Program-made: the position numbers and the translations under genes
Part shown: piece by piece, positions 4,362-9,133 of the stretch
How the letters are laid out: each line of letters starts with the position of its first letter
Position numbering within the stretch: the first letter of the stretch is position 1
Assembly (NCBI GenBank): GCA_030647435.1
Contig: JAUSJX010000069.1
Span: forward strand, 1 to 61,760
Reading direction: 5' to 3'
DNA from: Candidatus Rokuibacteriota bacterium
GTDB lineage: Bacteria > Methylomirabilota > Methylomirabilia > Rokubacteriales > CSP1-6
Length of the DNA stretch: 61,760 nt
Notes under the pieces: model-generated
The model's input: only the letters and a program-made list of their open reading frames with translations
What the model was told of the DNA's origin: nothing
Database searches by the model: none

Positions 4362-5342
4362 ATGAACAGGCCAGGAGTACCCGCACCGGGGTTCATCAAG
4401 CGGATCGGCCCTGTTATCGACGAGCGGCGGACCGTGGAATTTCGGCCGCTTGAGAGCTCGGAGCTCGTAAACCGTTTGAGCGACCCACGGCTGCCCTTTG
4501 GGTGGACCGTCAATCCGTTCCGCGGCTGCGAGTTCGGCTGTCGATACTGCTATGCGAGACCGACGCACGGCTATCTGGGTCACGCCGACCCTGCCGAGTT
4601 CGAGAGGCGGATATACGTGAAGCAGGCCGACGAGGCGAAGCTCCGCTCGCGCTTGAAGCGCGCGCGGGAGAGCGGCGAGGAGGTAGCCATAGGAGCGGCA
4701 ACGGACCCCTACCAGCCGGCCGAATCGCGCTTCCGGGTTACGCGGCGGGTGCTCGAGAGCGTCCTACGCGTGCCCGGCCTGCGAGTTGGCATCACCACGA
4801 AGTCTCCGGCGATCACGCGCGACATGGATCTGCTCCGCCGGATCGCGGCGGCGGGAGAGCTCGTGGTCAATATCTCGCTCACCTCGCTCGACGCCGCCCT
4901 CCTCCGCCGCATCGAGCCCCGCGCCCCACGCCCCGACCTCCGTCTCGGGGCCATGGCGGAGCTGACGGCGGCAGGCGTCCCGGCCCGGCTCTTCGCCATG
5001 CCGGTGCTGCCGTTCCTGACTGACCGCGAGGTCGCGCTGCGGGCGCTCTTCGCCGCGGCGCGCGCTGCCGGAGCGCGAGAGGCCATTTGGAACGTCCTCT
5101 TCCTCCGCGGCGAGACCCACGGGTTCTTCCTCGACTTCATCGCCCGCGAGTTTCCCCGGCTCCTGCCGCGCTACCGTGCTCTCTACGCAGGCGGGGCCAC
5201 GGCGGAGGCCAGCTACCGTGAGCGCGTGGAGGGGATGGCGGCGCGCGTGGCCCTCGAGGCGGGCTTCCCGGGACGAAGCCGGGCGGACCGGATCGCCGCC
5301 GAGCGACCCGCCCGGCCGCGTCAGCTGCTACTCGAGTGGTAG
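4362..5342 (+). CDS. Radical SAM protein (PA0069/SplB-like group)
   Basis: Radical SAM enzyme of 326 residues. The iron-sulfur binding motif is in NPFRGCEFGCRYCYARP near residue 48, giving C-x3-C-x2-C, with the CYAR context of the PA0069-like group related to spore photoproduct lyase. A TDPYQPAE segment follows around residue 112, also typical. The substrate of this group is not established. The ATG at 4362 lies close after the preceding terminator, so the gene has its own promoter or depends on read-through. Its end overlaps the end of the convergent DNA polymerase gene by 15 bp. Confidence 0.85.
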   Translation: MNRPGVPAPGFIKRIGPVIDERRTVEFRPLESSELVNRLSDPRLPFGWTVNPFRGCEFGCRYCYARPTHGYLGHADPAEFERRIYVKQADEAKLRSRLKRARESGEEVAIGAATDPYQPAESRFRVTRRVLESVLRVPGLRVGITTKSPAITRDMDLLRRIAAAGELVVNISLTSLDAALLRRIEPRAPRPDLRLGAMAELTAAGVPARLFAMPVLPFLTDREVALRALFAAARAAGAREAIWNVLFLRGETHGFFLDFIAREFPRLLPRYRALYAGGATAEASYRERVEGMAARVALEAGFPGRSRADRIAAERPARPRQLLLEW

Positions 5343-7703
5343 CTGGGCCGGGACCTCGGGCTCGCCGTCGCTCGCGGGGGCGAGGCCATCCTGCTCGATG
5401 AGCGGGCGGAATTTCTCGTAGAGGTCGTGGAGCTTGGCGAGGTAGTAGGCGGTGTTCTCGTCCGGAGCGGCGGGATTCCATTCGGCGGCGAGCTTGGCCG
5501 CCTCGTTGACCTTCACGCGCTTACCCTCGCCGGCGACGTAGTAAGAGACCTGGTCACCCGCCTGGTATGGCCGCTCCGAGCGAAGCGCCAGCTCGTAGGC
5601 GGCCGAGACGTTGCGCTTTCTGTCGCGGAGCTTGTCCTGGTAGCCGGCGGGTGACTCCTGGAGCGTCTCCGTCTTCATGAACTGCTTGACCGGCACGCGG
5701 TGGGCCTCGAAGTCCTCCTGCCAGCGCTTGACGAGAGCGGGGATCTCCTCGCGCCGTCCCGTCAGCAGCAGCCGGAACATCTCCTCCAGCCACAGGCGCT
5801 GGAACAGCTCGATGCCGCGTGAGCGAAGCCCCGACCCCTTGACCAGGAGCTTGCCGCGATGGTCGAGCAGGACGTAGTTCTTCATCTTGTAGGAGAGCAT
5901 CGCCTCGTAGCGGCCGCCGAGCTCGAGCTGGATGCCGGGCGGCAGCACGCGCTCGAGCTCGGCCATGAGGGTCTCCTCGTCTTCATTCAGCCCTCGCCTC
6001 GCCGCTGATCCACTCAGCTCTCGCCTCAGGGCTTCGCCCTTCAGCTCGAACCGCCTCTCCTCCGGCTCGTCGGCAGCGTCTCGGCTCGAAGGGCGCCCTT
6101 CGGGAGGGACGAAGTAGAGGCCGTCGGTGTCCACCTCTATGACCGACGCGCCCAGTTCGCCCAGACGCTCCACGAGCGACATGACCAGCGCGCGCCCTTC
6201 CCCGGTGACGCGGTTGGCGGCGTCGTAGTCATTCCAGTGCCCCTGCGAGAAGGCGAGGTAGCCGTAGAAGGAGTTGATCAGGATCTTGAAGGTCTGCTGG
6301 AGGGCGCCGAGGAGCGTCCGGTCGGCCTCGACCGGCGCCTCACTCGCGAGCCGTTTGGCCGCCAGCCGGAACTCGCGGAGATCGCCGAGCAGCTTCGGGA
6401 AGACGCCCAGAGTGTCGCTGGCGGGTGCGATCTTCCGCGTCAGCATGAGCGACGGGTAGAGCGAAGTGACGTCGGCGTGGAGTACCGGCCGGGCCACGCC
6501 CGTGAGGAGCACCGTCGTGTAGCCTCCGGCCACGGCCTTGCCCGCCGACGGCGCGGGCACGGCGCGACGCTGGTGCAGGTACTCGCGCATCAGGAGCCCG
6601 TCGATCTTGGTCGCGTTGCCGCGGAGCACCACTGATTCGTAGGACAGCGGCAGCGCCTGGGCCTGGACGAAGTACGGCGGCGAGAGCAGCCCCGAGAGCG
6701 CCAGCGTCTCGACCACGTCGTCTCGCGCATAGGCCATCAGCCGTTCGGGTTCTTCCCGGAAGATGCGGGGGATGTCTTCGGGCGGCAGGTAGGTGCGCTC
6801 CGGCGCCGCGATGCCGAAGTGGCGCGCGACGTCCTTGAGGCCGTAGGACTCGAGGTCGCGGGCGGCGACGTCGTAGAGCTGGACGAGGATCCACGTGTCC
6901 ACGATGTGACGGCCGGCGACCGCGTAGCGACGGTAGGCGATGGTCCGGTCGGCCACTTGCATGCGAGAAGGCCGGCCGGTCAGCGTCGAGCCGTCGCGCC
7001 CCCAGGCGAGCGGCACCTTGTGCCGCCGGGCGCGCGCCTCGATGTACTCGAGGTCGAAGCGGAAGATGTTGTGGCCCTCGAGCACGTCGGGGTCGCGCTC
7101 CTGGATCAGGCGGCCGCACTCCGCCAGCAGCTCGGCCTCGCTCATCTCGGCGCCGGAGAGCACCGTGGTGAAGCCCGCCGAATCGGCGATCGCGATGGCG
7201 ATGATGCGGTCGGACTCCCGGGCGGCGTTGGGGAACTCGAAGCCGGGCGCTGTCGTGACTTCGATGTCCACGGCCATGCGGCGCACGTCCTCGAAGGCCA
7301 TTCCGAGGAAGGACGTCCGGCCCGTGCGGAGCAGGAACTGGTGCACGGGGTCCGAGAGGAATTGATAGGGCGCGTCCGGGACTCCCGCGGTGCGACCGGA
7401 GACGCGCTGGGCGTAATCGCGGGCCCTGAGGCAGTGGCTCCAGGACGGGAACTCGGCCAGCCAGCGGTACGCCGCATCGCCGTCGAGGGGCACGATGGTC
7501 GCATCGCCTTTGAAGCCCCTGAGCCGGTCCGGGTCCGCGAGGAGCAGGAAGGGCCGGAAGGGCTCCTCGGTGACGCGCGGGACGCCGTCGCGCGACCAGA
7601 TCCGCACGGCCTCCTCGCCGGCCTCGAAGGCGACCTGCCCGGGAGTCCCCGCGCGGCCAAAGAGCAGACGGTTGTCGTAGAAGGGCAGGGGCAGGCGCGT
7701 CAA
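5328..7703 (-). CDS. Family B DNA polymerase (Pol II-like)
   Basis: DNA-dependent DNA polymerase with proofreading exonuclease, 791 residues, close to E. coli Pol II (783). Exonuclease motifs: DIE near residue 146, GHNIFRFDLEY near 210, YARDDV near 325. Polymerase motifs: A DVTSLYPS near 411, B KILINSFYGYLAF near 473, C EVDTDGLYF near 523, and KMKNY near 606. All catalytic Asp/Glu residues are present, so it should be active, probably in repair or translesion synthesis. The likely start is TTG at 7703, which overlaps the stop of the upstream TPR gene (TTGA), indicating translational coupling. Between motif C and KMKNY there is a charged insertion of about 45 residues encoded partly by a repeat element also found at 8.2-8.4 kb. 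Confidence 0.93.
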   Translation of the reverse strand: MTRLPLPFYDNRLLFGRAGTPGQVAFEAGEEAVRIWSRDGVPRVTEEPFRPFLLLADPDRLRGFKGDATIVPLDGDAAYRWLAEFPSWSHCLRARDYAQRVSGRTAGVPDAPYQFLSDPVHQFLLRTGRTSFLGMAFEDVRRMAVDIEVTTAPGFEFPNAARESDRIIAIAIADSAGFTTVLSGAEMSEAELLAECGRLIQERDPDVLEGHNIFRFDLEYIEARARRHKVPLAWGRDGSTLTGRPSRMQVADRTIAYRRYAVAGRHIVDTWILVQLYDVAARDLESYGLKDVARHFGIAAPERTYLPPEDIPRIFREEPERLMAYARDDVVETLALSGLLSPPYFVQAQALPLSYESVVLRGNATKIDGLLMREYLHQRRAVPAPSAGKAVAGGYTTVLLTGVARPVLHADVTSLYPSLMLTRKIAPASDTLGVFPKLLGDLREFRLAAKRLASEAPVEADRTLLGALQQTFKILINSFYGYLAFSQGHWNDYDAANRVTGEGRALVMSLVERLGELGASVIEVDTDGLYFVPPEGRPSSRDAADEPEERRFELKGEALRRELSGSAARRGLNEDEETLMAELERVLPPGIQLELGGRYEAMLSYKMKNYVLLDHRGKLLVKGSGLRSRGIELFQRLWLEEMFRLLLTGRREEIPALVKRWQEDFEAHRVPVKQFMKTETLQESPAGYQDKLRDRKRNVSAAYELALRSERPYQAGDQVSYYVAGEGKRVKVNEAAKLAAEWNPAAPDENTAYYLAKLHDLYEKFRPLIEQDGLAPASDGEPEVPAQLPLE
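6014..6052 (+). repeat. Palindromic-repeat segment inside the polymerase gene
   Basis: Reading TCAGCTCTCGCCTC, a GGGCTTCGCCC hairpin, then TCAGCTCGAACC, this segment matches the inverted copy at 8259-8296 at about 33 of 38 positions. It is read in frame and encodes part of FELKGEALRRELSG. A second short match, GCGAGGCGAGGGCTGA on the reverse strand, lies directly beside it. Confidence 0.75.
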
Positions 7704-8185
7704 TTCAGGAGCCCGATGAGGCGATGGAGCTCCCTGCGCGCCGCCGTGTAACGCGGTTCGATGGCGATGGCGCCCTCGAGCTCGCGAATGGCCTCGCGGA
7801 CCTTGTGCCGCCGCACATAGATGCGCGCGAGGTTGAAGTAGGGGAAGTGGCGGGGCTCGTAGCGAGGCGCGACCTTGGCGCGCTCGAGCCACGGCACCGC
7901 TTCGTCTTCACGGCCGAGCTCGATCAAGTACGCGCCGATGTCGTTGTACGGGTTGCCGAACGTCGGGTCCACGGCGATGGCGGTCCGGCACTCCGCGATG
8001 GCGTCCTCGTGCCGGCCTTGGTGGGAAAGCGCCCAGCCGAGGAAGGTGTGGGCTTCGGCGGTCGCCTGTATCGCGATCGAACGGCGGTAGCACTCGATCG
8101 CCGCGTCGATCCGGCCGGCCATCTGCTCCTCGTAGCCGCGCTCGAAGTGCTCGCGCGCCTCACCCGCCCACTCGCGCTCGGCCAT
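7700..8185 (-). CDS. TPR-repeat protein
   Basis: Cytoplasmic protein of 161 residues made of about four tetratricopeptide repeats (for example GRIDAAIECYRRSIAIQ, GRHEDAIAECRTAIAVDP, GREDEAVPWLERAKVAP, HKVREAIRELEGAIAIEP). TPRs give a helical scaffold for protein binding; the partner is unknown. It lies upstream of, and overlaps by 3 bp, the family B polymerase gene, so the two are co-expressed and may act together. The ATG at 8185 is chosen because everything upstream in the frame lies within a palindromic mobile repeat (8199-8419), which cannot be native coding sequence. Confidence 0.85.
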   Translation of the reverse strand: MAEREWAGEAREHFERGYEEQMAGRIDAAIECYRRSIAIQATAEAHTFLGWALSHQGRHEDAIAECRTAIAVDPTFGNPYNDIGAYLIELGREDEAVPWLERAKVAPRYEPRHFPYFNLARIYVRRHKVREAIRELEGAIAIEPRYTAARRELHRLIGLLN

Positions 8186-8198
8186 GTCGCGCCCGCTA

Positions 8199-8419
8199 GC
8201 AGGCCGCTGAAAAAGGCCCATCTGCTTCGTTGGCGCCCTCGGCCGCACGCTCGTGGTCGTTCGAGCTGAGGGGCGGAGCCACGAGGCGAGGGCTGAGATG
8301 ATGGTTTGTACGCCTCGCGTGCGGAATCAACTCAGCCCTCGTCTCGCGACGGCATAGGCCGTCGCTCAACTCGAACAGCGGGGCGCCGCCTCGCATCTGG
8401 GCCTTTTTGAGCGGCCTGC
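8199..8419. repeat. 221-bp MITE-like palindromic element
   Basis: The ends are near-perfect inverted repeats of 22 bp: GCAGGCCGCT then S-AAAAAGGCCCA at 8199-8220, and its complement at 8398-8419. Inside, two inverted copies of a TCAGCCCTCGCCTCG...CTCGAAC hairpin unit lie at 8259-8296 and 8332-8376. No coding capacity. It fills the gap between the TPR gene and the DsbA-family gene. Confidence 0.85.
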
Positions 8420-8437
8420 GGGTTCTTCAGCATCCCG

Positions 8438-9040
8438 CTAGGCGTCTTCGATCGCCTTGCGGTACGTGGGAAGGTCCACGAGGCCGGTCAGGCGCCTGCC
8501 GCCCTCCACGATGATGGTGGGGATGGCGCGCACCTGGTCGCGGGTCACCGCTTCCTCGTAGTCACGCGTCACGGCGTCGCGCGCCGCGCCGCCCTCCCAG
8601 TCGTGGAGAAAGCGCGTCATGTCCGCGCCGGCTTCCTTGACGACGCCCATCAGCTCGTCCGGCTTGGCGATATTGATGCTCCGGGAGAAGAAGGCCTCGT
8701 AGAGGAGCAGGTGGAGGCGGTCGAACGCCTGAGCACCCTGGAGCTCCACGCACTTGGCCGCCTCCAGCGCCGGCAGGGACCAGTTCGGGTAGTCATCGCG
8801 CGGCCACGGCGTGTACGTAATGCCGTCGCTCGCCGCCATGGCGCCGCAACGGCGCCACCCCTCTTCACGGTGGGTGCCCTTGAAGGCGACCGACGGGTCG
8901 GGCTCAGGGCGAAGCGGGAAGGCCTTCCACTGGATGACGAGGTCGTCGCCCATCTCATCCTTGAGTCTCCGGAGGCGCACGGCCGCCGGGTAGCACCACG
9001 GTCAGAGGTAATCGGCGTATTCCACGATGTGCACGGGCAT
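8438..9040 (-). CDS. DsbA/FrnE-family thiol oxidoreductase, probable selenoprotein (Sec-Pro-Trp-Cys)
   Basis: Thioredoxin-fold oxidoreductase of the DsbA/FrnE/2-hydroxychromene-2-carboxylate isomerase superfamily, 200 residues counting Sec. From ATG 9040 the frame reads MPVHIVEYADYL, then TGA (9004-9002), then PWCYPAAVRLRRLKDE. In relatives this motif is CPWC, so the TGA replaces exactly the N-terminal active-site Cys. The rest is intact to TAG 8438, with the cis-Pro loop AIPT near the end and a typical helical insert. GGGAGG lies 5 nt before the ATG. Downstream of the TGA, after 14 nt, GGCG-GCCGTG-CGCC can form a small stem-loop with G in its loop, placed like a bacterial SECIS. No signal peptide, so cytoplasmic. 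The alternative is a nonsense mutation in a pseudogene or a start at 8980. Confidence 0.8.
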
Positions 9041-9133
9041 GCTCGCCTCCCGGAGTTATTGTACCGGGTGTGATTGTACCGCAAGGGGCGCTCACGGGGC
9101 GGACCGCGTGACGGTTGCGATATACTTGGGCAC

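Follow-up and report, generated by a model that had tools for sequence, protein, structure and literature searches.

DsbA-like selenoproteins with a UxxC motif were reported from a Sargasso Sea survey in 2005, as nine sequences of COG2761 (PMC1088965), and members are known from Anaeromyxobacter, Desulfovibrio and Desulfotomaculum (PMC1794560). A 2026 review catalogues a 'DsbA-like protein form 1' (PF01323, UxxC), with NIP15863.1 as its representative, and mentions a MAG from Methylomirabilota in which 63 selenoprotein genes were predicted (PMC13188914). The gene studied here occupies positions 8438–9040 on the reverse strand of the window, by which we mean the whole stretch of DNA analyzed (61,760 nt, contig C69), from a genome of 5.8 Mb that is 98% complete. 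The host, a Candidatus Rokuibacteriota species, is a bacterium of soil and groundwater, and its named relatives put the lineage within Candidatus Rokubacteria/Methylomirabilota. From the sequence evidence, we conclude that this gene very probably encodes a cytosolic DsbA-superfamily (FrnE/YjbH/DsbM-like) oxidoreductase with a UPWC active site, in which Sec13, incorporated under the direction of a SECIS element, would act as the nucleophile together with Cys16.

Reading frame and the active-site TGA

Read from 9040 to 8438, the gene translates to MPVHIVEYADYL-U-PWCYPAAV...EDA*, a protein of 200 residues whose frame ends with TAG and whose sole internal stop is the TGA at codon 13 (9002–9004, reverse strand). 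Judging from the frame and its homologues, we read this codon as selenocysteine; it occupies the place of the leading CPWC residue of Cys homologues. The initial annotation had proposed an intact, family-like frame on either side of one TGA, preceded by a good ribosome site, and both features were recovered: the frame runs through 200 codons with that single TGA, and a ribosome binding site recognizable by sequence, GGGAGG (9046–9051, reverse strand), lies 5 nt upstream of the ATG. It had also foreseen that automatic gene calling would begin too late, at 8980, and lose the active site, and the longest table-11 ORF indeed starts at GTG 8980, 3' of the TGA. That the natural product starts at this GTG, as a protein of 180 residues devoid of the active-site motif and with the upstream part untranslated, is what table-11 gene calling would have us believe, but such a start would deprive the thioredoxin fold of its first strand and of its active site, the upstream codons (EYxDYL) are conserved and the ribosome site is well placed, so that we consider it most improbable. 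A scan of the window for further frames that are split by TGA and bear redox motifs yielded three more; on inspection, none shows a convincing Cys/Sec motif.

Of 60 genomes searched within the order, most have an orthologue, and every orthologue spanning the active site carries exactly one TGA. In this group (clade A), TGA stands at codon 13 in 35/35 readable orthologues, which come from many species and assemblies, share 55–95% identity and have no other stop in their frames. The scattered stop codons in close homologues that were to speak against a selenoprotein are thus absent from all 35. Faulty assembly or sequencing would leave a wrong base, and a nonsense mutation of recent date turning TGC into TGA would leave a dead gene, and it is true that the TGA is one base away from TGC and that distant homologues use a Cys codon; however, the same TGA is kept in independent genomes within frames that are otherwise open, and since this excludes sequencing error and gene decay, we regard the chance of either as negligible. 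One relative has two clade A copies (G047:C187 and G047:C189), reflecting either a duplication or a mixed assembly.

More distant copies carry TGA or a Cys codon at the same site. Clade C paralogues, 27–32% identical to the query, have TGA in 21/21 copies, including one on contig C50 of this genome, and two intermediate copies also have TGA at the active-site codon. At the C50 locus (L002, G000:C50:9963-10496), the genome has another selenoprotein gene of the DsbA family with UPWC, which carries a strong SECIS hairpin of its own (z −4.95). Clade B paralogues (37–43% identity) are split evenly, five copies having TGA and five TGC; these copies, from closely related genomes (L054-L062 and L065), form a natural Sec/Cys switch at one and the same active-site codon. 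Beyond the phylum, 55 homologues from Myxococcota, Chloroflexota, Binatota, Spirochaetota and others in a named genome collection have TGC or TGT, and three Anaerolineaceae homologues in the same collection have TGA, in a UVWC motif. The latter belong to a separate Anaerolineaceae DsbA-like group, in which L152, L156 and L164 carry TGA and L151 is a Cys copy (TGT). Altogether, among the 125 rows compared, 65 have Sec and 60 have Cys at the aligned position. No third residue was found there, and the Cys codons of the homologues confirm that the TGA falls where the family has the first Cys of CPWC. In a tree of the 125 sequences, Sec and Cys copies form clusters, and of the seven changes on the tree several fall within clade B and Anaerolineaceae; since the deep branches are long, we draw no conclusion on the direction of change.

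Selenocysteine machinery and the SECIS hairpin

The initial annotation called for a search for selA, selB, selD and a tRNA-Sec, and all four were found in the genome. The tRNA-Sec (71 bits) has anticodon UCA, and selA (584 bits, cut-off 268) and selB (381 bits, cut-off 242) lie within a few kb of it on the same contig. The selD gene, located elsewhere, also scored above its cut-off and has a TGA in its own motif, CAGUASK; SelD (L020, G000:C98:94090-95046) is thus a selenoprotein itself. Across the order, tRNA-Sec was detected in 49/60 genomes; at the cut-off used, none was obtained from the other 11, some of which have a TGA copy, and this may reflect incomplete assemblies or filter losses.

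Several genes neighboring the Sec gene terminate with TGA. As TGA is an ordinary stop, the TGA at codon 13 must be distinguished by a signal. Insertion of Trp, near-cognate suppression or read-through of a general kind would fit the frame equally, which stays open whichever residue is inserted; yet TGA terminates those neighboring genes, the Sec machinery is complete, homologues align Cys at the TGA and a covarying bSECIS follows it, all of which makes a residue other than selenocysteine highly unlikely.

The predicted signal is a hairpin, CCGG-C-GGC-CGUGC-GCC-U-CCGG (8969–8989, reverse strand), located within the coding sequence and composed of seven pairs plus one mismatch around the 5-nt apical loop CGUGC (8977–8981, reverse strand). 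Its base lies 12 nt and its loop starts 20 nt 3' of the TGA. The GC stem with a G-containing loop that had been noted earlier is therefore present, but it starts at 12 nt and not at 14 nt as then given. The published bSECIS model describes a loop of 3–9 nt with a G in its first two positions, a stem of 4–16 bp and a UGA-to-loop distance of 16–37 nt, its fourth criterion concerning free energy (PMC13188914). In loop, stem and distance, the three of the four criteria that we compared, the hairpin agrees with the model, and, as described below, it covaries. Considered by itself, the folding energy does not stand out (z −1.73 for the hairpin, +0.41 for 50 nt), so it is the comparative data that carry the SECIS claim. 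An Rfam search of the window gave no match.

The loop keeps its GU in all 58 Sec copies, and the flanking pair covaries, being C-G in 38, G-C in 15 and G-U in 5. Consistent with these counts, codon 7 of the clade A SECIS region is split between GCC (17 copies) and GCG (18 copies), and codon 8 between GTG (17) and GTC or GTT (18). The clade C stem is made of almost entirely different letters (CUCAGUAC...GUAUUGAG) in the same pairing register. Over 32 distinct sequences, 87.8% of cells were paired, compared to 38.9–56.3% in controls with slid partners, and an unaided search recovered the same hairpin core. In the DNA alignment of these 32 sequences, six of the nine pairs have changes on both sides; covariation was counted per sequence and not per independent event, and the both-side changes mostly amount to one clade-level split, while the loop-closing pair varies inside clade A. 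Synonymous codon choice in the stem is also frozen: CCG, GCG and CGC are used in 35/35 clade A copies, and AGT, CGT and ATT in 21/21 clade C copies, although elsewhere in the gene the latter three make up only 2–3% of the codons for their amino acid. Taken together, the machinery, the homologues and the covarying hairpin support the reading of this gene as a probable selenoprotein. SelB carrying Sec-tRNA(Sec) would bind the loop of the hairpin 12 nt downstream and insert Sec at the UGA of codon 13 in place of termination.

Fold, location and neighborhood

The read-through protein matches PF01323 (DSBA) over residues 5–197 with an E-value of 9.3e-22 and a score of 78.2 bits, against a gathering threshold of 25.6, whereas no NCBIfam model reaches its cut-off. 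The structure model (mean pLDDT 91.7) has a strand at residues 3–9 and a helix at 16–33, which places Sec13 and Cys16 at the start of helix 1 in a thioredoxin-like manner, and the model, with its active site opening helix 1, has the thioredoxin fold of the DSBA domain, helical insert included. Besides Sec13, Cys occurs only at positions 16, 65 and 97. In an alignment of nine proteins, from which L044 was left out, Cys97 and P174 are invariant, and P174 probably represents the conserved cis-Pro near the C-terminus. A signal peptide, a trait of periplasmic DsbA, was not found: an in-frame stop 17 codons 5' of the TGA leaves at most five residues before Met1. Since the first strand begins at residue 3, there is no room for such a peptide, which suggests that the enzyme resides in the cytosol.

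The top PDB fold matches are YjbH, FrnE, a putative disulfide isomerase, DsbA-like proteins and HCCA isomerase, at 14–22% identity. HCCA isomerases and GST kappa are among the fold matches, and 3fz5 was also matched by sequence, so a selenoprotein of the same fold that belongs to the HCCA isomerase/GST-kappa branch and acts as isomerase or glutathione transferase has to be weighed. At that site, these branches typically carry one Ser or one Cys, and every homologue examined, Sec or Cys, keeps the UxxC/CxxC dithiol motif, which makes this reading unlikely. For the oxidoreductase favored here, thiol-disulfide redox activity would follow from family knowledge, and Sec insertion from sequence evidence. 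The Sec13 selenol would attack a disulfide or thiol of a protein or small-molecule substrate, after which a selenenylsulfide between Sec13 and Cys16 would be formed and resolved, with Cys16 as the resolving residue.

The gene neighborhood is conserved across Rokubacteria, with an SDR, a trypsin/PDZ protease and a dienelactone hydrolase on one side and a TPR protein, a family B DNA polymerase and a radical SAM protein on the other; no neighboring gene points to a substrate for the Sec enzyme. The polymerase (5328–7892), a bacterial member of family B, lies next to the Sec gene, a position it retains across Rokubacteria. Just after the Sec gene lies a 227-bp MITE-like element (8196–8422) with 27-nt imperfect terminal inverted repeats, which has 62 matching stretches in the genome.

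Comparison with described relatives

YjbH (UPF0413, 6ghb) is the best PDB match in both sequence and fold. Identity is 22%, however, and the YjbH structure is that of an adaptor in complex with Spx, a role of which the window protein shows no sign. FrnE of Deinococcus radiodurans (5cnw, 5co3 and 5xwh) superimposes with a TM-score on the query of about 0.8 and has CPWC in the same place, but it has Cys instead of Sec and shares only about 20% identity. FrnE also has a second redox Cys motif towards its C-terminus. The FrnE structure series names a Cys239 mutant, whereas the window protein is 200 residues long with no Cys past 97, so that the second motif of FrnE in the strict sense is missing. 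The 'FrnE-type' label of the initial annotation therefore holds at the level of the fold and fails on identity and on the Cys-free C-terminal half, and on these two grounds we prefer the more cautious name 'DsbA/FrnE-like'. The Rcas_1661 family thioredoxin-like (seleno)lipoprotein (NF041057) gave a partial match to the C-terminal half (42.8 bits, cut-off 190); that family consists of lipoproteins, in contrast to the window protein, which cannot accommodate a signal peptide.

This family is missed by curated models and shortened by standard gene calling, and our results add a well-supported selenoenzyme to the phylum of the MAG with 63 predicted selenoprotein genes. The Sec and Cys copies of clade B, found in close relatives, provide natural pairs for asking why a lineage retains Sec in a disulfide enzyme.

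When set beside its published description, DsbA-like protein form 1 resembles the window protein in belonging to PF01323, in having Sec first in UxxC and in a bSECIS right after the UGA, and differs in that Sec has become fixed in the window clade throughout Rokubacteria/Methylomirabilota. Because the DsbA-like UxxC family has already been catalogued, the window gene is an addition to a known family. It could instead represent an uncatalogued subfamily of its own among cytosolic DsbA/FrnE-like selenoproteins, one that is ancestral in Rokubacteriales, fixed there and held in one conserved neighborhood, a tentative proposal that we consider somewhat doubtful; on this view, its sister clades switch between Sec and Cys, so that matched natural Sec/Cys pairs would allow an enzymatic comparison.
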